From contig CAIJED010000004.1 in assembly GCA_903819595.1 (NCBI GenBank), positions 1-32,402 on the forward strand: DNA of 32,402 nt, written 5' to 3'. This document shows positions 5,886-32,166 of the stretch, piece by piece. Numbering within the stretch: the first letter of the stretch is position 1; each line of letters begins with the position of its first letter. The position numbers were made by a program, and so were the translations under genes. The notes beneath the pieces are model-generated. The model was given only the letters and a program-made list of their open reading frames with translations, made no database searches and was not told where the DNA came from. This DNA is from an uncultured Methanomicrobiales archaeon. Its GTDB lineage: Archaea; Halobacteriota; Methanomicrobia; Methanomicrobiales; Methanospirillaceae.

Positions 5886-8027
5886 TTACGAACGGGGTGT
5901 AAAGATCTTCACACCATCCTGGTCATATACCGGGACGATATCCGCGGAATCAACGTTAACATGGTACCGTGACCGTTCTGATTCACCAACATATAACAAA
6001 GAGGCATTATATTTTTTCATCAGCGCTACGGTCTCGTTGGGGTTTTCATACATTGATCGGACGTCATTCATGCGACTACCATACCACCCTGACGTGTCAC
6101 CGCGCCACATAAACTCGTGGAATGGCCAGCCGATTACTGTGGGTATGCCGGTAAAAGAAGAGATCCGTGAATAGTAGGTATAGTCGCCATTTTCAGCTTC
6201 TACAAGAGAGAGATTCCCGGGAAGGGATCGGAGCCACACCACTGCTGCTGCATCTCCCGGATGACTGGCATTCACATAGGCGAGACCATCAAGGGATCGC
6301 GGGCCATCGAACATTGTGACCGGAACAGCCAACGGCAGGATAATAAACCCGATTGCCAGTAACAGGGTCAGAATAACCCGGGTACGGTGGAGGTTAATCC
6401 GTGGCGGGAACCACCTGGCCAGCATCATTCCAAGCATTGCAAACCCCGAAGCCCCAAGCAGGAGCCAGGCTGCAAAATAGAACTTGAACACGGTGTTCAT
6501 CCGGTAATAAACGTCTCCCATACTATCTTTGAGGTAGAAAAACTCGCAAAATATGATAATTACCAGCCCTGCAATTGCAAGAATTTCCACAGGGTCTGGT
6601 CTCCAGCGCGCAACAAGGTAGATCAGCGGTACCAATGCGACTGCAGCGGAGATGTAACCTGCCAGGGCAAATGGAATGACAATAAGGACAAGCCAGGGCC
6701 GCTTGACAATATCTCTCCACAGGTAGGCGATAAAGATCAAAAGAAATATACCATGTACAAGAAGGAATTCCGGCAGGCCTGTTGGGGATCGGACAATTCC
6801 GATTCCCTGGATACCCTGCGTGCTCAGCTGGAAATAGAACGGGGCCCATAAGAGGACCGAGAGGGGTGGTACAATGAACAGGAATCCCCAGCCGGTATCC
6901 GCAATTTTCCCTGGAGATTTTGTGAGCAGCGCGATACATTCTCTGATTGCTGCTGCCATGCATGCCAGGCTGGAACGGATCTGGAGAGATAGTCCTGCTG
7001 AACCTCCTGACATACCGTTACCGCCGGGGTCATGCGTATCTCCCTGGTGAGTGGTGAGATGCCAGACCAGTACTCCGATAAGAACCATGAATGGTGCGTA
7101 CAGGAGGATGTCCCAGGTATTGATCAGTGGCATCGCACCGAGCGAGAGGGAAGACAATACCACAATGCACCAGCGTCCCTGGCCGGAAAGATTTCCCCAT
7201 CGCTTCAGGGAAAACACCAGGAGAAATATGAAAAATACCTGGTTGAACATTCCGATAAGGTGGGGGTGGACGTCTCCCCAGAGGAGTGAAAAAAGTGGGA
7301 ATTCATTGATTGCATTGGGGATCGTCCTGGTACTGTTCCAGAATAGTGACCCGACGGGCGTTCCGCGAAGAGCCTCGTATAAAAATGAGGGGTTTACAAT
7401 CAGAAAAGTCGCCAGCGGGAGCCACCTGAACCGTTCAAGGAGCAGGTGACCAAGAGCGTACATGGTCACTGCCGAGAGGGCAAAAACCGTCGGGAGAGCC
7501 AGGTTGAACACGATATCCGATGGTGCCCCGCTCACAACACCTAACGCCCCGATTGCCCAGTACCCGAGGTAATAATAGACATTCATGTACCCACCGGAGA
7601 ACCACGGATCAAGTGGTGGCACTACGGGGTCACGCATTACCGAAGCAATGAAACCGTGGTCCATGAATTTCTCAGCAAAGGAGATCGATGGGTTTACGAA
7701 CCGTACATTAAGCATGAACAGGAAGCAGACCAGGAACAGGAACTCCCATTTCCACTCATTTTTAAGCCCGGTGCATAAATATTCACGGCGATACAGGGCA
7801 AAGAGGAACAGGAGGATAAACGGGGCTAACGCGATGTAAATCGGGACCCTGGCCAGTCCACAATACCATGAAATAAACGTGAATAATAAAATGGACGCTG
7901 GGAATGCCACAGGAAACGCCAGGTCGCCGATCGCTTTTTTCAGGTACGGCCAGAGTGAGAGCTGGAGGATGGTGAGGATGAGCAGCCACGAGATTACTGA
8001 CAGGACCTGGATATCAGCGCCCGGCAT
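5886..8027 (-). CDS. DUF2298 (YYY-domain) polytopic membrane protein
   Basis: A very hydrophobic protein of about 713 residues with many membrane helices and a soluble C-terminal region (about 590-713). It belongs to the DUF2298 family, whose signature is the triple tyrosine seen here as MNVYYYLGYWAIGALG. Family members resemble GT-C glycosyltransferases of the PMT/GT39 type and are usually found in envelope-glycan loci, but the reaction is not established. The start is ATG at 8027; the frame could extend to a TTG at 8048, but that would increase the overlap with the gene before it. It is the last gene of a four-gene operon and overlaps the flippase-like gene by 14 bases. No T-tract terminator is obvious after its stop. 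Confidence 0.85.
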   Translation of the reverse strand: MPGADIQVLSVISWLLILTILQLSLWPYLKKAIGDLAFPVAFPASILLFTFISWYCGLARVPIYIALAPFILLFLFALYRREYLCTGLKNEWKWEFLFLVCFLFMLNVRFVNPSISFAEKFMDHGFIASVMRDPVVPPLDPWFSGGYMNVYYYLGYWAIGALGVVSGAPSDIVFNLALPTVFALSAVTMYALGHLLLERFRWLPLATFLIVNPSFLYEALRGTPVGSLFWNSTRTIPNAINEFPLFSLLWGDVHPHLIGMFNQVFFIFLLVFSLKRWGNLSGQGRWCIVVLSSLSLGAMPLINTWDILLYAPFMVLIGVLVWHLTTHQGDTHDPGGNGMSGGSAGLSLQIRSSLACMAAAIRECIALLTKSPGKIADTGWGFLFIVPPLSVLLWAPFYFQLSTQGIQGIGIVRSPTGLPEFLLVHGIFLLIFIAYLWRDIVKRPWLVLIVIPFALAGYISAAVALVPLIYLVARWRPDPVEILAIAGLVIIIFCEFFYLKDSMGDVYYRMNTVFKFYFAAWLLLGASGFAMLGMMLARWFPPRINLHRTRVILTLLLAIGFIILPLAVPVTMFDGPRSLDGLAYVNASHPGDAAAVVWLRSLPGNLSLVEAENGDYTYYSRISSFTGIPTVIGWPFHEFMWRGDTSGWYGSRMNDVRSMYENPNETVALMKKYNASLLYVGESERSRYHVNVDSADIVPVYDQDGVKIFTPRS

Positions 8028-8991
8028 TGCCCCCCGCCCCTTCGCCAAGTTCCTTGTTGAATGCTGATTTTATTGTTGAGAGGACCCAGTCGCCGAGGTA
8101 ATAGATGGAAATAACTCCGCCGATAAGTGTTACCAGATTCTTGATCAGGTGGTCGGTCACTGCAATCAGAAATGCCAGTGCCGGTTCCACTCCCGCAAGT
8201 TGGAGGACGAGTGACACGGCAAGTTCATAGGTCCCCACCCCGCCCGGTGTCAGGGGAATTGCTTTCACAAGGTTTCCGATGACAATCGCCAGTACGATAA
8301 TTGGTATCCCGATATTCTGGCCAAACATGTACACAACAAAGATACATACACCAACGTCGAGCAGCCAGATAACGACTGATAATACCGAGAACTGAAGGAG
8401 TGACCTGATGCTCAGGGAGGCTTTCCGCACCTCATCAAGCATGGCAAGGATGAGTTTGATATATTTATTTTGGGATTTCACCCTCCCCAGTGCGACCAGG
8501 ATGATCATGAATACCGCCCCGATAATAAGCGGGGCAACAATGACAAAGTAAAACCATTGTGGTACATTCAGGACAAAGGGGAGCATGATCACTCCGAGGA
8601 GTGCGACCATGATGATATCAAAAAGCCTCTCAACAACAATGGAGGAAATGCCGGTAGATACCGACGTGTCATATTCATGCTTCAGGATGAAAACCCTGAC
8701 CAGATCACCGAGCCGGGCTGGGATCACGAGGTTGGCAGTCTGGGAAACAAATATACATGCTGTGGAGACCAACATCCCCGCCTTCACCTGGAGGCTTTTC
8801 AGGATACCCAGGTACCGGGCACCCCGTAGTATCCACGCCAGGAGACAGACCAGCACTGCCGGAACAATATAAAGCGGTATCACATGGTGAAGTGCCACAA
8901 GGAGCTCGTCCCATACGGAAAACAGCATGTAGATAATGATGCCGGCGGCGATCAGCGTTGGAATAACAATGGCACTAATCTTTCTGAACAT
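8014..8991 (-). CDS. Flippase-like integral membrane protein (lysylphosphatidylglycerol synthase TM family)
   Basis: A 325-residue protein with about eight predicted membrane helices, of the UPF0104/TIGR00374 type related to the membrane half of lysylphosphatidylglycerol synthase. Visible family features are the LRGARYLGIL segment, the FRxxxLVIPARLGDLVRVFILK-like region and, near the C terminus, TPGGVGTYELAVSLVLQLAG. Members are often annotated as flippases or as partners of glycosyltransferases, although the transported molecule is not proven. The start is ATG at 8991, with GGTGG upstream, inside the last 17 bases of the glycosyltransferase gene. Its own end overlaps the DUF2298 gene. These overlaps imply coupled translation and a shared pathway. 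Confidence 0.87.
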   Translation of the reverse strand: MFRKISAIVIPTLIAAGIIIYMLFSVWDELLVALHHVIPLYIVPAVLVCLLAWILRGARYLGILKSLQVKAGMLVSTACIFVSQTANLVIPARLGDLVRVFILKHEYDTSVSTGISSIVVERLFDIIMVALLGVIMLPFVLNVPQWFYFVIVAPLIIGAVFMIILVALGRVKSQNKYIKLILAMLDEVRKASLSIRSLLQFSVLSVVIWLLDVGVCIFVVYMFGQNIGIPIIVLAIVIGNLVKAIPLTPGGVGTYELAVSLVLQLAGVEPALAFLIAVTDHLIKNLVTLIGGVISIYYLGDWVLSTIKSAFNKELGEGAGGNAGR

Positions 8992-9691
8992 GGAGTCGCC
9001 ACCATAACCGCAATATCGATAGTCCCATACCTGTCACATCACTTTTACGAACGGTTGTGCCCGGTCCCTGCTCCCAGTTTACCGGGAATTCGAATATCCG
9101 GTATCCTTTCCGTTGTGCCCGGATGAGGATCTCGGTATCCCAGAACCAGTGTCGCTCCCGGACCTTTTCGGCAATTAATAGAACACGCTCACGACGAAAC
9201 GACTTGAACCCGCACTGGTGGTCGTGGAGCCTGCTCCCAAGGATAGTCCGGACGAGGAAATTGTATCCCCTGCTTGCAAATTCCCTCCCGCCAGTCCGAT
9301 GAATCCGGCTGTCCGGGAGAAGCCGTGATCCTGTTGCGATATCATAGCCATCCTGTATCGCATTTACCAGTTCGTGCAGATGTTCCATCCCGGTCGCCAG
9401 GTCAACATCATAATACAGGACAATCGGTGCAGATGTTTCACGAAACGCACGGTTCAGTGCCCTCCCCCGTCCAAGACGATCATCACTGTGAAGGAGGCGG
9501 ACACGCGGATTTTTCCTGCTTATCTCCCTGACCAGCTCTGCACTGCCATCCGTGCTACCATCCTCAGCGATGATCAGTTCAAAATCAGGGGTGATCTTTT
9601 CAAGATGTTGAAGGGAAACGGGGATTGCATGTTCCAGGGCCTTTCGGTCGTTATATACCGGTATCACGGCAGCGATAGCAGCGTTAGTCAT
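8975..9691 (-). CDS. Family 2 glycosyltransferase, dolichyl-phosphate glucosyltransferase (ALG5)-like
   Basis: A 238-residue GT-A glycosyltransferase, probably acting on the cytoplasmic face of the membrane. It has the family 2 opening AAVIPVYNDRKALEH, the EDGSTDGS nucleotide-binding segment, the metal-binding DVD in LYYDVDLATG, GSRLLPDSRI, and the late signature HDHQCGFKSFRRE. Together these match the ALG5/dolichyl-phosphate glucosyltransferase branch, which moves a hexose from a nucleotide sugar to a polyprenyl phosphate. Donor and acceptor here are inferred. ATG at 9691 overlaps the oxidoreductase end by eight bases; a TTG at 9709 is in frame but less likely. It sits directly before the flippase-like gene, as expected for making and moving a lipid-linked sugar. 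Confidence 0.9.
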   Translation of the reverse strand: MTNAAIAAVIPVYNDRKALEHAIPVSLQHLEKITPDFELIIAEDGSTDGSAELVREISRKNPRVRLLHSDDRLGRGRALNRAFRETSAPIVLYYDVDLATGMEHLHELVNAIQDGYDIATGSRLLPDSRIHRTGGREFASRGYNFLVRTILGSRLHDHQCGFKSFRRERVLLIAEKVRERHWFWDTEILIRAQRKGYRIFEFPVNWEQGPGTTVRKSDVTGMGLSILRLWWRLHVQKD

Positions 9692-10916
9692 TTCCAGGCC
9701 TCTGGTCAACTATATCGGCAACGCCGAACCCGGCCTGGACAGACCCTTCCATGCTCCTCTCGGGGTAATTTGGTGCTGAAAACATGCCCGCCATATACAG
9801 CCCTCTTTCTCCATATGATGGGATTAACCGGCGGAAACCGGTAGTATAGACTGGTCCGGCAAATGGATCCACAGCGAGTTTATGCCAGTGGATCGCCTCT
9901 TTCGGAATCGAAAATTTCCTGCAGAAGTCCCCGATCATTGCCTTGTCGAGACCAGGTCTGATGGCCCCTGAAAAATATGATGCAAGGTACAGGATATGCT
10001 CGCCATATCGTTCGACAGGGATGAAGTTTGTATGGGAAACAACCGCCCCGTAAGGGGCGTTATCTTTCATATTGAGCCAGTAAATATTATCTGTTACATC
10101 CCGGTCGAGGCCGATTGTCATGCAGGCGGCCCCCTGGTAAGGGATATGAGGCAAATCCGGTCCACCGATCTGCTGGAGCTGGTCCGGGGGTATTGTTGAA
10201 ATAACGGCATCATAGTCCGTGTCATTAACGCGCCAGGAGTCCCCGTTTTTTACCAGTCCTGTTGCAGGATTGTTATAAATAATACGAGTTCCCCGGCCTG
10301 AAATGGTGGAAACCAGCGAATCAACAAGCAGGTGGAAGCCGCCATTCAGATATCCGAGCCGTTCTCCTGAAATACCCCGATCTGACCTGATTTTTATCCG
10401 GCTTATCAGCCAGGCGGCAGAAACATCAGAACGGCGTTCTCCGAATTTGCTGCGGAGCAGTGGTTCGAAAAATGAACTGTACACTCGTTTCCCTACGTGC
10501 TGGAGGATGAAATCTTCTGCAGTGACTGAGTCGAGTGGCAGGGTATCCATTTTTTTGGCCTTCAGAGTCAGCCAGGCGAGTCTCACCTTATCCGCAAGGC
10601 CAAGGTGAGGATAACGGAAAATCTCTGACGGTGTTGTCAGGGGGTAAATTTTCCCATCCGCATAATATCCAGTTGTCCCGCTCCTCCATTCAAGGTTGTC
10701 TGCGAGGCCAAGTTGATCAAATAATGAGATCAGCTGGTGGTCTCCTGAAAAGCAATGGTGGTAATATTTCTCGATCCAGCAATTCCCTACTTCATACGAC
10801 GAGAGGCAGCCGCCTGGAGCGGAGGTTTTTTCGAAAAGGTCGATATCGTGCCGACCCGAAAGCGCATACGCCGCTGTAAGGCCGGTCAGTCCTCCGCCGA
10901 TGATACAGATCTTCAT
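9684..10916 (-). CDS. FAD-dependent oxidoreductase (amine oxidase / protoporphyrinogen-oxidase-like)
   Basis: A 410-residue flavoprotein. The N terminus has the Rossmann dinucleotide motif (MKICIIGGGLTGLTAAYAL), followed by the FEK acidic end of the second strand and the GGCLSSYEVG loop. The C-terminal FAD-contact motif is MEGSVQAGFGVADIV. The fold is that of the amine-oxidase superfamily, which includes protoporphyrinogen oxidases, carotenoid desaturases and UDP-galactopyranose mutase relatives; motifs do not settle the substrate. It heads an operon with an ALG5-like transferase, a flippase-like protein and a DUF2298 protein, so a role in prenyl-lipid or sugar modification is more likely than haem synthesis. 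That is inference from context. The start is ATG at 10916; the promoter region is shared with cetZ, which diverges. Confidence 0.85.
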   Translation of the reverse strand: MKICIIGGGLTGLTAAYALSGRHDIDLFEKTSAPGGCLSSYEVGNCWIEKYYHHCFSGDHQLISLFDQLGLADNLEWRSGTTGYYADGKIYPLTTPSEIFRYPHLGLADKVRLAWLTLKAKKMDTLPLDSVTAEDFILQHVGKRVYSSFFEPLLRSKFGERRSDVSAAWLISRIKIRSDRGISGERLGYLNGGFHLLVDSLVSTISGRGTRIIYNNPATGLVKNGDSWRVNDTDYDAVISTIPPDQLQQIGGPDLPHIPYQGAACMTIGLDRDVTDNIYWLNMKDNAPYGAVVSHTNFIPVERYGEHILYLASYFSGAIRPGLDKAMIGDFCRKFSIPKEAIHWHKLAVDPFAGPVYTTGFRRLIPSYGERGLYMAGMFSAPNYPERSMEGSVQAGFGVADIVDQRPGND

Positions 10917-11136: not shown

Positions 11137-12321
11137 ATGAAGATATTTTTCATTGGGTTCGGACAGGCGGGAGGAAAGATCGTAGATATGTTCCTCTCTC
11201 AGGACAAACGGCTCGGCACCCAAAGTTTCAGGGGAATCGTTGTCAATACCGCACGCACTGACCTGATGGGACTAAAGACGATTCCAATGCGTAATCGCGT
11301 TCTGATCGGACAGACCGTGGTGAAAGGTCACGGTGTCGGGACTGATAATGCTGCGGGGGCCAGGATCACCCTCGATGAGGTGGACGGTATCATGAGTGCT
11401 ATCGATCGCGTGGGGGCACACGATGTGGATGCATTTATGATCGTTGCAGGACTTGGGGGTGGGACCGGATCAGGTGGCACCCCGGTCCTTGCGCGAGAGT
11501 TAAAAAAAATTTATCAGGAACCGGTATATGTCCTCGGCATCCTGCCAGCCCCTGAAGAGGGGAGGTTGTATTCTTACAACGCCGCGAGGAGCCTGAAGAC
11601 GATCATCAACGAGGCGGACAATACGTTTCTGTTTGATAATTCAGCCTGGAAAAATGAGGGTGAAAGTGTTAAAACGGCGTTTCAACGTTTAAACGATGAG
11701 ATTGTGAGGCGGTTTGGGATTCTCTTCCGGGCGGGTGAACCAGGGAAGTTTGGTGTCGGTGAAATGGTTGTCGACTCAAGCGAAATTATTAATACACTGC
11801 GGGGTGGCGGTATCACAACGGTCGGGTATGCAATCAGCAGTGTATCTTCAAAAAAGAAACAGACCAATGTAGGCGCCTTTATCACTACAATAAAAGACAC
11901 AATTATCCGGAAAGATCGGGAAGATGAAGGCCTTATGGGTGAGGACAGAACGGCGAAGGTCATTTCGCTTGTGAGACGGGCGATGCTTGGCCGACTTACT
12001 CTCCCCTGCGATTTTTCAACCGCTGAGAGGGCCCTTGTCCTTGTTGCGGGACCCCCGAATGAACTTGACCGGAAAGGGATCGAGAAGGCCAAGAGCTGGG
12101 TAGAAGAAAATATTGCCGGTGTTGAAGTCCGGGGCGGCGATTACCCGGTAAACAGTGAACATATTGCCGTTGTCGTAGTGCTTGCGAGTATTGGAAACGC
12201 ACCACGAATCAGGGAACTTCTTGAAATTGCCACGGAGACAAAAGATGATGTATATAAACCTGATCGGCGAAAAAAATCAACAATGTTTGAGCAGGAGTCA
12301 ATTGAACCGCTGTTTGAGTGA
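11137..12321 (+). CDS. cetZ: CetZ tubulin/FtsZ-superfamily GTPase
   Basis: A 394-residue cytoskeletal GTPase. It begins MKIFFIGFGQAGGKIVDMFL, has the tubulin signature GLGGGTGSGGTP (about 105-116), and carries the CetZ-type segments NRVLIGQTVVKGHGVGTDN and EEGRLYSYNAARS. These match archaeal CetZ rather than division FtsZ, and it lacks the long FtsZ linker and FtsA/SepF-binding tail. CetZ proteins are best known from haloarchaea, where CetZ1 controls cell shape and motility; the role in methanogens is largely unstudied. GGGTGT lies seven bases before the ATG, and AT-rich TATA-like sequence lies at 11099-11107. A membrane-anchored protein follows 12 bases after the stop, suggesting a two-gene operon. 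Confidence 0.92.
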   Translation: MKIFFIGFGQAGGKIVDMFLSQDKRLGTQSFRGIVVNTARTDLMGLKTIPMRNRVLIGQTVVKGHGVGTDNAAGARITLDEVDGIMSAIDRVGAHDVDAFMIVAGLGGGTGSGGTPVLARELKKIYQEPVYVLGILPAPEEGRLYSYNAARSLKTIINEADNTFLFDNSAWKNEGESVKTAFQRLNDEIVRRFGILFRAGEPGKFGVGEMVVDSSEIINTLRGGGITTVGYAISSVSSKKKQTNVGAFITTIKDTIIRKDREDEGLMGEDRTAKVISLVRRAMLGRLTLPCDFSTAERALVLVAGPPNELDRKGIEKAKSWVEENIAGVEVRGGDYPVNSEHIAVVVVLASIGNAPRIRELLEIATETKDDVYKPDRRKKSTMFEQESIEPLFE

Positions 12322-12333
12322 GGAACGCGTTAT

Positions 12334-13509
12334 ATGAGCACATTGAAGATAAGCCTTATTGTTCTGCTGGTTATTCTTGCAGGCGTCACCGCTGCATCTG
12401 CGTCAATAAGTGTAAAAAACATTGCAATTACCCCGACTGGGGATCTTGTATCGGGGCAGAATCCGCCGAATCCGGTTACCGCATCTTTTGTGATCAATTT
12501 TAATTCAGTTGGTGGCGAAACGTTTCCGAGTAGTGAGACGCTCGCGATGTCAACTGACCTTGAAAAAGGACAATGGTCATATATTACTTCCCTCGATGGT
12601 AATCCGAACCCGGCTGTGACTGCCAATGGAAGAAATTTAAATATCAACGGGTGGGTTCTGTCTTACCCTTCAAAAAGGGACTTGTCAATGCGTGTTACCC
12701 TGAATGGTGAAGTCCCTACCGTGACTGCATCAGGGAATAAAACTATTATCCGGGTTTCCGAACTGGGTTCTCAATCCGAAGAGGTATCTGGTAGTGGGGT
12801 GACCAGGGAAGCGTATATCATCAATCCAACGGATAAAAAGAAGGCAATATCTGATGTAAAGACCACCCTTACGGCATTCAGATCATCAATAGACGAAAAG
12901 GCCCAGCAGGGCGTTGATACGACGGCCGCGATGGAGAAATATTCGGCCGCAAATACAGCAATTCAGAATGCCGATAAATCTCCTTCATTTTCCGCAGCCC
13001 AGACCTATATGACTAATGCCCAGGCACTGTTACAGGATGGCCAGACGGCACTGGACAGGGCAGTGGCCCAGCAGGTCATTAACGGGGCACAAACACCTAT
13101 TGACCAGACTGATGGCCTTATTACCTATTTCAAGGTAAACCGGAGCATGGGAAATGATCCGAGACTTGCCCCCATTATTCAGAAAAGGGATCGGGCCGCA
13201 GAGTTATTATCAGAAGCAAATGACCTTTTGCCGAAAAATGATTTCGCCGGTGCAAAAGAGAAGGCACTGCAGTCTGTCGATGTCGCAACTCAAAGTTATG
13301 ATGCGGCCCTTGCATTAAGGAAAGATATAGGCGAGGCCAACCCGCTGGATTCTGTCACAAAGGGATTCGGAGGCGTTTTTGGTAGTGCAGCCAGTGGACT
13401 CGGGCGCATCATTATTTATATCGTAATATTTGTAGTTATCGCGGTTGTCGTCATTGTCGGGATCATTCTCTATCGTCGCAGACGTTCGGATTGGGATGAG
13501 CTGGCATAA
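12334..13509 (+). CDS. Secreted, C-terminally anchored membrane protein downstream of cetZ
   Basis: I do not recognise a named family. The 391-residue product has a signal peptide (about 1-24, ending ASA), an N-terminal beta-rich extracytoplasmic domain (about 25-155), and an alpha-helical region rich in Ala, Gln, Lys and Asp (about 165-345) that may form coiled coils. The end is a strong membrane helix (about 357-380) followed by a short RRRRSDWDELA tail facing the cytoplasm. It starts 12 bases after the cetZ stop, with GAGG close upstream, and a T8 terminator follows. The topology places a short charged tail on the same side of the membrane as CetZ. A function as membrane anchor or partner of CetZ is a hypothesis from gene order. 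Confidence 0.85.
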   Translation: MSTLKISLIVLLVILAGVTAASASISVKNIAITPTGDLVSGQNPPNPVTASFVINFNSVGGETFPSSETLAMSTDLEKGQWSYITSLDGNPNPAVTANGRNLNINGWVLSYPSKRDLSMRVTLNGEVPTVTASGNKTIIRVSELGSQSEEVSGSGVTREAYIINPTDKKKAISDVKTTLTAFRSSIDEKAQQGVDTTAAMEKYSAANTAIQNADKSPSFSAAQTYMTNAQALLQDGQTALDRAVAQQVINGAQTPIDQTDGLITYFKVNRSMGNDPRLAPIIQKRDRAAELLSEANDLLPKNDFAGAKEKALQSVDVATQSYDAALALRKDIGEANPLDSVTKGFGGVFGSAASGLGRIIIYIVIFVVIAVVVIVGIILYRRRRSDWDELA

Positions 13510-13516
13510 TTCTTAA

Positions 13517-13524
13517 TTTTTTTT
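13517..13524 (+). terminator. T8 tract after the cetZ operon
   Basis: Eight T follow eight bases after the stop of the membrane-protein gene, flanked by AATTC (13508-13512) and GAATT (13525-13529). It is a standard archaeal termination signal for the cetZ unit. Confidence 0.6.
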
Positions 13525-13835: not shown

Positions 13836-15623
13836 TTAAATGCCTTTGATGCCCATTATCCTGGTCAGATTGGATAGTGGGTTAGGATATACCAAAGATA
13901 CAGGGGATCCTTTTTGGATCCCGGAACCGGTAGATAACGTGAAGTTCCAGGTTTTCCCCCCGCTTTCTGGTCCATTCATCATTACGTTATCTGCGTTCGT
14001 TCCGATCCGTGTAAAAATATCGAGGTTTATACTTCCCATTTTCCCATCCCTAAAAAAATAATATTCGGGGATCCGGTTCTCATTATCAATGACCGAGAAC
14101 CAGTAAGAGAGTTTGTAGGTCCTTTTATTGTATCCGGTAAGTTCCGGGTAACTCTCGAGATCATGGGTGATGACCATATCAGGTAATTGTTTGTAAATCT
14201 CATCGGTATTAAGGACCTCACCATAAAATTTGACTTTATCCCAACCATGTCCACGATCGTACCATGGAAGTGGCCAGTAATCTTTCGATACGATCATGAC
14301 AATATCTGCGGCATCAATAATTTTTATGATTGTCCGGACATCTTCGGAGTTTTGCACCTGTACGATTGGCTCGTTTACATCTGCAGGAACAAATGCAACG
14401 TGCCATGTCATGACAATGAGGAATAAACACGTGAGAAGTGCAACAGCCATTTTCTTCTTTGTCATCATGTAAACGGCAACGAAGATCATTGGTAACAGCT
14501 GGTGGATAATGAGCCAGGGGACTTTCTCACCGATTACCGCGTAGGCTGCAAGTGAAAGAATCAACCAGAACAGGCAGAATATAAAAAAATCATCCCGCTT
14601 ATCTTTAAAGATCGCACTGTCCCTGTGGGTTTCCAGCTGCCTGACACTAGCTCCCACAAGTTCACGTGTGGATAATTCAGGTCCTGGTTGCTTCCTGAAC
14701 CGGGATAAAGGTTCGGAAAATATTTTGATGGTATTTTTCAGCCTTGCTCCCGTTCCCGCGTACTGGATAATGCCCACAATCGCAAAGATGAAAATGGGGA
14801 CCTCGTAAAGCAGAAACAGGAGGATATAGAAGAACCATGGCCCACATATACGACACTGGCCGGACATCGCGGTCCAATGGTTCCAGGCATTAATCCATCC
14901 TGTTTCAAGGATCTCGAAATGTGTTCCAAAGGAAGAATACAGGGCTGCGAGAATAGCAACTGCTAGAAGGATACCGATCAAAGCGTCGCGTTTCCAGGTC
15001 TTTGGCAACACAATTTTCTTACTTGCAATAAGGTAAAGCCCGAAGACCAGAAAGATCAGGAGGAATATCGGCATATCCTCTTTGAGGGCCATCCCACCGG
15101 CCACCCCTATTCCGGTCAGCAATGCAAATCGCAGCTTTCCGGAATTCAGGTAATAGAGCAGGGCAACAAGGATCAACAAGGTAAAAAAAAGTTCGAAAAC
15201 GTCATGGCGGAGGAACCGAGAGAAAAAGACAAGGTCCGGTGAAATTGCGACGAACAGCGCCGCGACAATCGCCTGCTTCTCATCGAGGTACCCAAGCCGG
15301 TAAATATAATAAACGAGTGGGATTAGCAGTGTGCCAAACAGGGCTGGGAGAAGGCGGGCGATGAGGTCCGACTGGCCCAGCAACCAGAACATTCCAGCAG
15401 TCAGGTAATACAGTAGTGGACCGTGGTACATCGGGTCATAGACATATGCCCCCTTTGTCACGAGTTCATAGGAGAACCATGCGTGAATTGCCTCATCATG
15501 GTGGAAAAGTTTCAGGTCCAGAAAAGCGAACCGGAGTGTAATTGCGAGGAGTATTATTAAAATAAAGCATCGATTAAAAGAGAGCCTTTTTGTAATTCCA
15601 TGGAAAAAATTGGCGACTGACAC
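13836..15623 (-). CDS. GT39-type membrane glycosyltransferase, TIGR03663 (Agl23-like) family
   Basis: A 595-residue membrane protein with roughly eleven or twelve helices and a soluble C-terminal part (about 440-595). The first outer loop carries the acidic pair D43-E44 in HHDEAIHAWFSYELVTKG, followed by DPMYHGPLLYYLTAG. This is the signature of the TIGR03663 family, which is related to GT-C dolichyl-phosphate-sugar-using transferases and is called flippase-associated Agl23 in some annotations. It probably adds a sugar to a lipid or protein on the outer face of the membrane; the acceptor is unknown. The start is GTG at 15623, with GAGG upstream and only eight bases after the S10 stop, so it is probably co-transcribed with elongation factor 1-alpha and S10. 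Confidence 0.85.
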   Translation of the reverse strand: MSVANFFHGITKRLSFNRCFILIILLAITLRFAFLDLKLFHHDEAIHAWFSYELVTKGAYVYDPMYHGPLLYYLTAGMFWLLGQSDLIARLLPALFGTLLIPLVYYIYRLGYLDEKQAIVAALFVAISPDLVFFSRFLRHDVFELFFTLLILVALLYYLNSGKLRFALLTGIGVAGGMALKEDMPIFLLIFLVFGLYLIASKKIVLPKTWKRDALIGILLAVAILAALYSSFGTHFEILETGWINAWNHWTAMSGQCRICGPWFFYILLFLLYEVPIFIFAIVGIIQYAGTGARLKNTIKIFSEPLSRFRKQPGPELSTRELVGASVRQLETHRDSAIFKDKRDDFFIFCLFWLILSLAAYAVIGEKVPWLIIHQLLPMIFVAVYMMTKKKMAVALLTCLFLIVMTWHVAFVPADVNEPIVQVQNSEDVRTIIKIIDAADIVMIVSKDYWPLPWYDRGHGWDKVKFYGEVLNTDEIYKQLPDMVITHDLESYPELTGYNKRTYKLSYWFSVIDNENRIPEYYFFRDGKMGSINLDIFTRIGTNADNVMMNGPESGGKTWNFTLSTGSGIQKGSPVSLVYPNPLSNLTRIMGIKGI

Positions 15624-31239: not shown

Positions 31240-32166
31240 GTGGATGTCCCATGGCTTATAGTGGCTGGTTTCGGTGCCCATATCAAATCGACACGAAACA
31301 CACTGTTTGTACAAAAAGAAGGCGATATTAAGGAATACCCGATTGAGTCCGTGCGCCACCTTTTAATTATCGGTGGCCATACCCTGCACACCCCTGTCAT
31401 TGCATATCTCATGAACAAAGGAGCCTGTATATCATTTTTCGAAGCAGATGGGAAGCCAGTCGGGACGATACGTCCGTTCAATATCCCCCATATAGTTAAA
31501 ATTTCGGAAATCCAGAAGAGTGCACCAAATTACCGGTACGCGGTTTCGATTGCAAGGGCTTCGATGAAATCCAAAACACTTTTTATTGGAAGACTCGGTG
31601 AAATAGTGGGACGTGAGCTTTTTTATGAGGGTGAATTGCAGATTTTTTCGAATGCATTTACCGAACTTGAATACCTCATTAAAATCAGCGAAATCAGGAG
31701 GATTGAGCGTCTGACCGCCGATATGTACTATGAGGTCATTTCCCGTGCCCTTCCCCCGGAATTTGGGTACAGGCGGCGGACAGGCAGGCCATACCATGAC
31801 CCGGTGAATGCAATAATCGCATTCGGATATGCGATGTTGTTTGGGAATGTCATGATTTCGGTGACAGGGGCCAACCTTGATCCCGATATCGGGATGTTAA
31901 AACGGGGTCAGTCATCCCTGGTCTATGACGTTATGGAACCGCTCAAGGTTGATATGATCGACCGGGAAGCGATCAGGTTCATTAGGGAGGAACTTCACGT
32001 AGAGGATTATGAATGTGGCCCTAACCGGTGTAGTCTCTCAGATCTCTGTATAAAAAAACTAATCCAGCTGTTCCACCGGACCATTGATCAGGATATCATT
32101 GATCGCCAGGTGGCAGCTCTTCTTGAATCTCTTGAACAAAAAACAGAATATATCATTGAGCGGTGA
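31240..32166 (+). CDS. cas1: Stand-alone Cas1-like protein with altered active site
   Basis: A 308-residue Cas1-family protein. The N-terminal beta domain (about 1-85) includes SVRHLLIIGGHTLHTPVIAY. The helical integrase domain has RRIERLTADMYYEVISRALP, RPYHDPVNAIIAFGYAMLFG, and LDPDIGMLKRGQSSLVYDVMEP. The expected metal-binding Glu is present (E156 in RRIERLTADMYY) and so is the Asp (D230), but the position of the catalytic His in the usual G-x-L-H motif holds K221. A C-x4-C-x5-C cluster (C259, C264, C270) lies near the C terminus, where typical Cas1 has none. It begins with GTG at 31240 after AGGAAAGG. No cas2, effector or repeat array is in view, so it looks like a Cas1-solo gene rather than part of a CRISPR locus. 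Integrase activity is uncertain. Confidence 0.9.
   Translation: MDVPWLIVAGFGAHIKSTRNTLFVQKEGDIKEYPIESVRHLLIIGGHTLHTPVIAYLMNKGACISFFEADGKPVGTIRPFNIPHIVKISEIQKSAPNYRYAVSIARASMKSKTLFIGRLGEIVGRELFYEGELQIFSNAFTELEYLIKISEIRRIERLTADMYYEVISRALPPEFGYRRRTGRPYHDPVNAIIAFGYAMLFGNVMISVTGANLDPDIGMLKRGQSSLVYDVMEPLKVDMIDREAIRFIREELHVEDYECGPNRCSLSDLCIKKLIQLFHRTIDQDIIDRQVAALLESLEQKTEYIIER

Follow-up and report, generated by a model that had tools for sequence, protein, structure and literature searches.

Archaea of the order Methanomicrobiales encode, directly after the gene for CetZ, an archaeal tubulin with a role in cell shape, an exported protein that is held in the membrane by a single C-terminal helix and ends in a short, strongly conserved cytoplasmic tail. 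Well beyond this order, too, cetZ is followed by a gene of this kind, and the arrangement as a whole spans methanogens, archaeoglobi-like archaea and roughly half of the sampled haloarchaea. The partner is proposed, with a probability of about 0.5, to serve as a dedicated bitopic tether or signaling link whose tail docks on CetZ.

The cetZ Gene and Its Downstream Partner

The window (the whole 32,402-nt stretch of DNA analyzed here) carries a cetZ gene of the Halobacteria-like, or CetZ1, type (394 aa; 11137-12321, forward strand). The gene product includes (i) a tubulin GTPase domain (Pfam PF00091, 106.5 bits versus a cut-off of 33), (ii) a CetZ_C domain (PF21011, 238.5 bits versus a cut-off of 21.6) and (iii) the GGGTGSG loop, present as GLGGGTGSGG. 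The top match in the PDB is 4b46 (E 2e-121), which is labeled there only as 'cell division protein FtsZ' and which we take to be CetZ1 of H. volcanii, while FtsZ entries match at about 1e-13 or weaker. The NCBIfam ftsZ model (TIGR00065) scores 74.5 bits, under its cut-off of 295.2. By these comparisons, the protein is nearer to the structures of CetZ1 than to those of FtsZ. Its conserved C-terminal peptide, ESIEPLFE (12295-12318, forward strand), includes three residues (I389, L392 and F393) that are invariant in alignment A3. The same genome encodes a second CetZ-like protein (L004 from position 1495; G000:C304) with a long C-terminal extension that is probably unstructured and from which the PLF end is absent.

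The partner gene (391 aa; 12334-13509, forward strand) is separated from cetZ by a 12-nt spacer (12322-12333), the TGA of cetZ being at 12319-12321 and the ATG of the partner at 12334. Both open reading frames and the spacing are as described in an earlier note made from the letters of the window, and the T8 run reported to follow the partner is present at 13517-13524 on the same strand, where it is a predicted, probable terminator of the pair. The two genes may be co-transcribed. The earlier note had also read a signal peptide, a beta domain, a helical domain, a membrane helix and an RRRRSDWDELA tail from the protein. Hydropathy analysis, which detects a signal peptide and one further membrane segment, and an AlphaFold2 model built from 56 Methanomicrobiales partners (mean pLDDT 89, with a low-confidence linker at about 343-358) agree with this reading. 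The signal peptide (about residues 1-24/28; 12334-12405) forms a helix at residues 3-20 of the model and is followed by an outer beta-sandwich domain (residues 25-163; 12406-12822) and an outer helical domain (residues 165-331; 12826-13326). The membrane helix (about residues 357-380; 13402-13473) coincides with a hydropathy peak of 3.6 at about 359-379 and with a model helix at 357-386, and the tail (13474-13506) includes a WDEL that is invariant in alignments A1 and A2; all of these features are on the forward strand.

Partner proteins found elsewhere vary in size from about 248 to 431 aa. Scans of Pfam and NCBIfam match no family to the window partner, the 56 Methanomicrobiales partners have only scattered weak matches to Pfam, and a Foldseek search with the model returns a generic beta-sandwich likeness of low TM-score. 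Two paralogs (G000:C110:3795-4271 and G000:C39:10644-11096) share only the beta-sandwich part of the partner, and relatives of this domain recur across many Methanomicrobiales genomes.

Pairing of cetZ and the Partner Within and Beyond Methanomicrobiales

The CetZ_C domain is detected in 148 of 150 Methanomicrobiales genomes and the partner in 138 of 150, including 107 of the 109 that are near-complete. In every Methanomicrobiales locus examined with enough downstream sequence, the partner gene directly follows cetZ, bar L035, which is a second cetZ copy in a genome (G018) that also has a paired copy. Second cetZ copies in family f6 are without a partner. The distance from the cetZ stop to the partner start is mostly -4 to +17 nt, with a few larger overlaps. 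The genes around the pair are conserved too, each in 39 or 40 of the 40 full-length loci; thus, with the wider region syntenic, adjacency within the order is on its own weak evidence. Surface-glycan genes flank the pair on the reverse strand of the window (5886-10916 and 13836-15623). The set includes DUF2298, flippase-like LPG_synthase_TM, glycosyltransferase 2, FAD oxidoreductase and mannosyltransferase-like PMT_2 proteins, and homologs of most of its members are near cetZ across Methanomicrobiales (DUF2298 was left out of this comparison). At the end of the window (31240-32166, forward strand) is an ORF that by eye resembles CRISPR Cas1.

Linkage outside of Methanomicrobiales is stronger evidence than linkage inside the order. 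Of 20 CetZ loci drawn from nine further families of the phylum, 16 are directly followed by a gene whose product combines a signal peptide with one C-terminal helix. When applied to all ORFs of 40 outside loci, a hidden Markov model (HMM) of the Methanomicrobiales partner selects the cetZ-adjacent proteins as well as unlinked homologs, with second copies also found beside two of the latter. The downstream proteins of the outside loci, being selected by this HMM, form one homologous family. The flanks of the pair differ by group and, as named by eye, include epimerase-like and cofC-like genes in Halobacteria and a flavin-prenyltransferase-like gene in some f9 genomes. Chance adjacency is ruled out by conservation of the pair across classes with different flanks. 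The gene order on which the earlier note had staked its proposal is, therefore, conserved not only in Methanomicrobiales but well beyond, and the recurrence of the pair across the order and in other classes makes it more than a coincidence. In several other families (L206, L207, L208, L222, L223 and L224), two genes of about 300 and 210-290 aa are found just upstream of cetZ in constant order.

Among the Halobacteria, the partner is present in 51 of 98 genomes. Comparison of coordinates places it against a cetZ1-like gene in each of these 51, either abutting it or overlapping with it, commonly by 23-41 nt. The partner is absent from the remaining 47 genomes, most of which retain CetZ1; none of the sampled f21 genomes yielded it, and neither did several f23 genera. 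In genus g112, two genomes encode a CetZ1 that is 98.0-98.7% identical to 4b46, and both have a partner ending in TTYDKLG; the partner is very likely present in Haloferax. One genome has another strong match to the partner of haloarchaea (G465:C7:103927-104679; E 1e-62), located away from cetZ1. The pair, which the earlier note had discussed for methanogens, is not special to these organisms, as members of the partner family also overlap cetZ1 in roughly half of the sampled Halobacteria. Finally, roughly one in three of the named loci has the partner in the reading frame of cetZ, counted through the stop, as expected by chance, and so no claim of read-through is made.

The Cytoplasmic Tail

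The tails of 107 distinct Methanomicrobiales partners have W in 106 (Y in the other), followed by D, E and L in 107 of 107 and then by G (104) or A (3). Mean conservation reaches 98.9% in the last five residues but 43-52% in the signal, beta, helical and membrane segments, and WDEL[G/A] is the only block that is near 100% conserved in this fast-evolving protein. An outer part that drifts and a cytoplasmic end that is constrained form a pattern suggestive of constraint from a partner inside the cell, for which CetZ is the obvious candidate. At the DNA level, 18 of 21 genomes have exactly one occurrence of the tail pattern, and a reversed control has none. The pattern is absent from G047, G077 and G152, of which G047 and G077 have partners ending in YDELF and YYDELG, respectively. 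The near-unique occurrence of the pattern in each genome renders a generic sorting tail unlikely.

Beyond the order, related ends are common. Partners of families f9 and f31 end in WDEL[RK] or FDEL[RK], those of f16 in WDRLG, f18 in WDKLGR (one of two genomes), f19 in WERL and f11 in WGRL, while most partners of Halobacteria end in YDKLG, YDRLG, YDKLR, FSKL or EYSKL. Six f9 genomes have a homolog that is apart from cetZ and still ends in KWDEL[RK]. In some f9 genomes (L226-L228), an unlinked WDELR homolog has a PGF-CTERM-like surface protein on one side and, on the other, a second protein of signal peptide plus single helix, which ends in DKW. Deviant tails include those of f10 (RKRGI[FY]), in which the pair is still adjacent, f24 (RRPPLG), f26 (GGFQRL) and a few haloarchaea. 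Distant homologs from five f12 genomes end in RAKL, RSKL or RKKL, without the aromatic-acidic motif, and a CetZ_C match is absent in these five genomes.

This distribution bears on whether the pair is instead an operon without contact, in which the partner would be an envelope protein (e.g., an adhesin, surface-layer or glycan-binding protein) that is merely co-expressed with CetZ in the same growth states. The close or overlapping genes do suggest coupled expression, and the glycosyltransferase, flippase-like and mannosyltransferase-like neighbors in Methanomicrobiales fit a surface role. However, co-expression leaves unexplained why conservation is highest in the cytoplasmic tail, why the tail is near-unique per genome and why it is retained where the gene is apart from cetZ; this explanation is, on the whole, rather unlikely.

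The C-terminus of CetZ mostly has a PLF or SLF end across the phylum. This end is also retained by CetZ1 proteins that have no partner and, thus, is not specific to the bitopic protein; the idea that a PLF end in CetZ always goes with a WDEL tail is for the same reason unsupported. That the tail and the CetZ end do not strictly covary would fit a tail that binds some other cytoplasmic protein (e.g., a MinD-type ATPase or a membrane protease) or acts as an insertion or turnover signal, with only an indirect link to CetZ. Further players are known inside the cell, as CetZ1 localization in H. volcanii depends on MinD2 and MinD4 (PMC11621097) and CetZ1 is degraded by LonB (PMC9263693). Yet the tail is confined to the partner in each genome, unlike a general signal, and the gene neighbor across classes is CetZ itself, which makes such binding improbable. 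That the partner is a sensor and not an anchor, with outer domains that bind a ligand or the surface layer and a tail that regulates CetZ assembly, would suit a beta-sandwich resembling many binding modules and a CetZ1 that can exist without the partner, as a dispensable regulator would allow, but is most improbable for an outer part that is fast-evolving, variable in size and in which no conserved binding site was seen.

A Proposed Link Between CetZ and the Cell Envelope

In the favored reading of the partner as a CetZ tether or signaling link, the protein would be exported via its signal peptide such that the beta-sandwich and helical domains reside outside of the cell. The single C-terminal helix would hold the protein in the membrane, with the tail, [W/Y]D[E/K/R]L plus one residue, exposed to the cytoplasm. 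There the tail would most likely dock on CetZ polymers, either on the body of CetZ or on its conserved C-terminal peptide, and so join the cytoskeleton formed by CetZ to the membrane and the surface layer. Such coupling could serve to anchor filaments or to place the surface protein along them, and may have a role in cell shape. That the outer part touches the cell wall, as raised in the earlier note, is a guess.

The interpretation of the earlier note is partly supported overall. Its suggestion of the tail as a CetZ tether gains indirect support, since no other part of the protein is as conserved and since the tail pattern is nearly unique within each genome, while docking itself is a prediction. 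Confidence in docking is limited because many haloarchaea keep CetZ1 without the partner and because family f10 alters the tail yet keeps the pair. A model of CetZ fused to the partner (in-frame read-through with TGA as Gly, code 25) is of low confidence (pTM 0.36, tail pLDDT about 46) and is not counted as evidence on the complex.

Comparison to Known Systems

MapZ, a streptococcal bitopic positioner of FtsZ, crosses the membrane with one helix and combines an outer domain with a short N-terminal cytoplasmic part that contacts the tubulin-family protein. The partner would share this outline, but in the opposite orientation, as its cytoplasmic part is C-terminal. The NCBIfam MapZ profile has no match in the window partner and, among 22 haloarchaeal partners, has one weak match (E 5e-5) that is below the cut-off. 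In kind, the partner resembles envelope-spanning FtsZ partners such as MapZ, without membership of their families. Archaeosortase substrates of the PGF-CTERM type are likewise exported and have a C-terminal hydrophobic helix with basic residues. The partner differs from these substrates in the acidic-aromatic end beyond its basic residues, which to our knowledge is not part of the PGF-CTERM-type sorting signal, and scans of Pfam and NCBIfam match no archaeosortase-type sorting-signal family to the window partner. SepF, the membrane anchor of FtsZ in archaea (PMC8178401, PMC8187382), acts on a tubulin-family protein in the way proposed here for the partner, but serves FtsZ; a SepF domain is not found in the window partner by Pfam or NCBIfam.

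The cetZ neighborhoods surveyed by Brown and Duggin in 2023 (PMC9856176) concern the same cetZ genes, and in the part of the survey available the cetZ1 regions, with an epimerase upstream and cofC nearby, match the haloarchaeal loci described here. That part names epimerase, cofactor and nucleotide genes as neighbors of cetZ1, reports few similarities among the cetZ regions of Archaeoglobales, Methanomicrobiales and Methanosarcinales, and makes no mention of the downstream membrane protein. A search of the main texts of papers, largely open-access ones, found no mention of HVO_2203 or HVO_2205 (the loci whose numbers adjoin that of cetZ1) and, among accounts of a CetZ anchor or interaction partner, no description of the partner gene. 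Within these bounds, the CetZ partner family appears new to the literature.

Implications for the CetZ Cytoskeleton

As to how CetZ filaments are joined to the membrane and surface layer of archaea, a review and a vesicle study go no further than placing CetZ at the envelope or at membrane that is curved (PMC7617429, PMC10927574). The partner, conserved from methanogens to haloarchaea, would be a concrete candidate for this connection. More broadly, and tentatively, the partners may form a family of membrane-spanning CetZ receptors, old within the Halobacteriota, that ties the tubulin-like cytoskeleton to the surface layer via a C-terminal [W/Y]D[E/K]L peptide, which would explain the action of CetZ1-type proteins at the envelope. 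The very likely presence of the partner in Haloferax would make it testable in a model organism.
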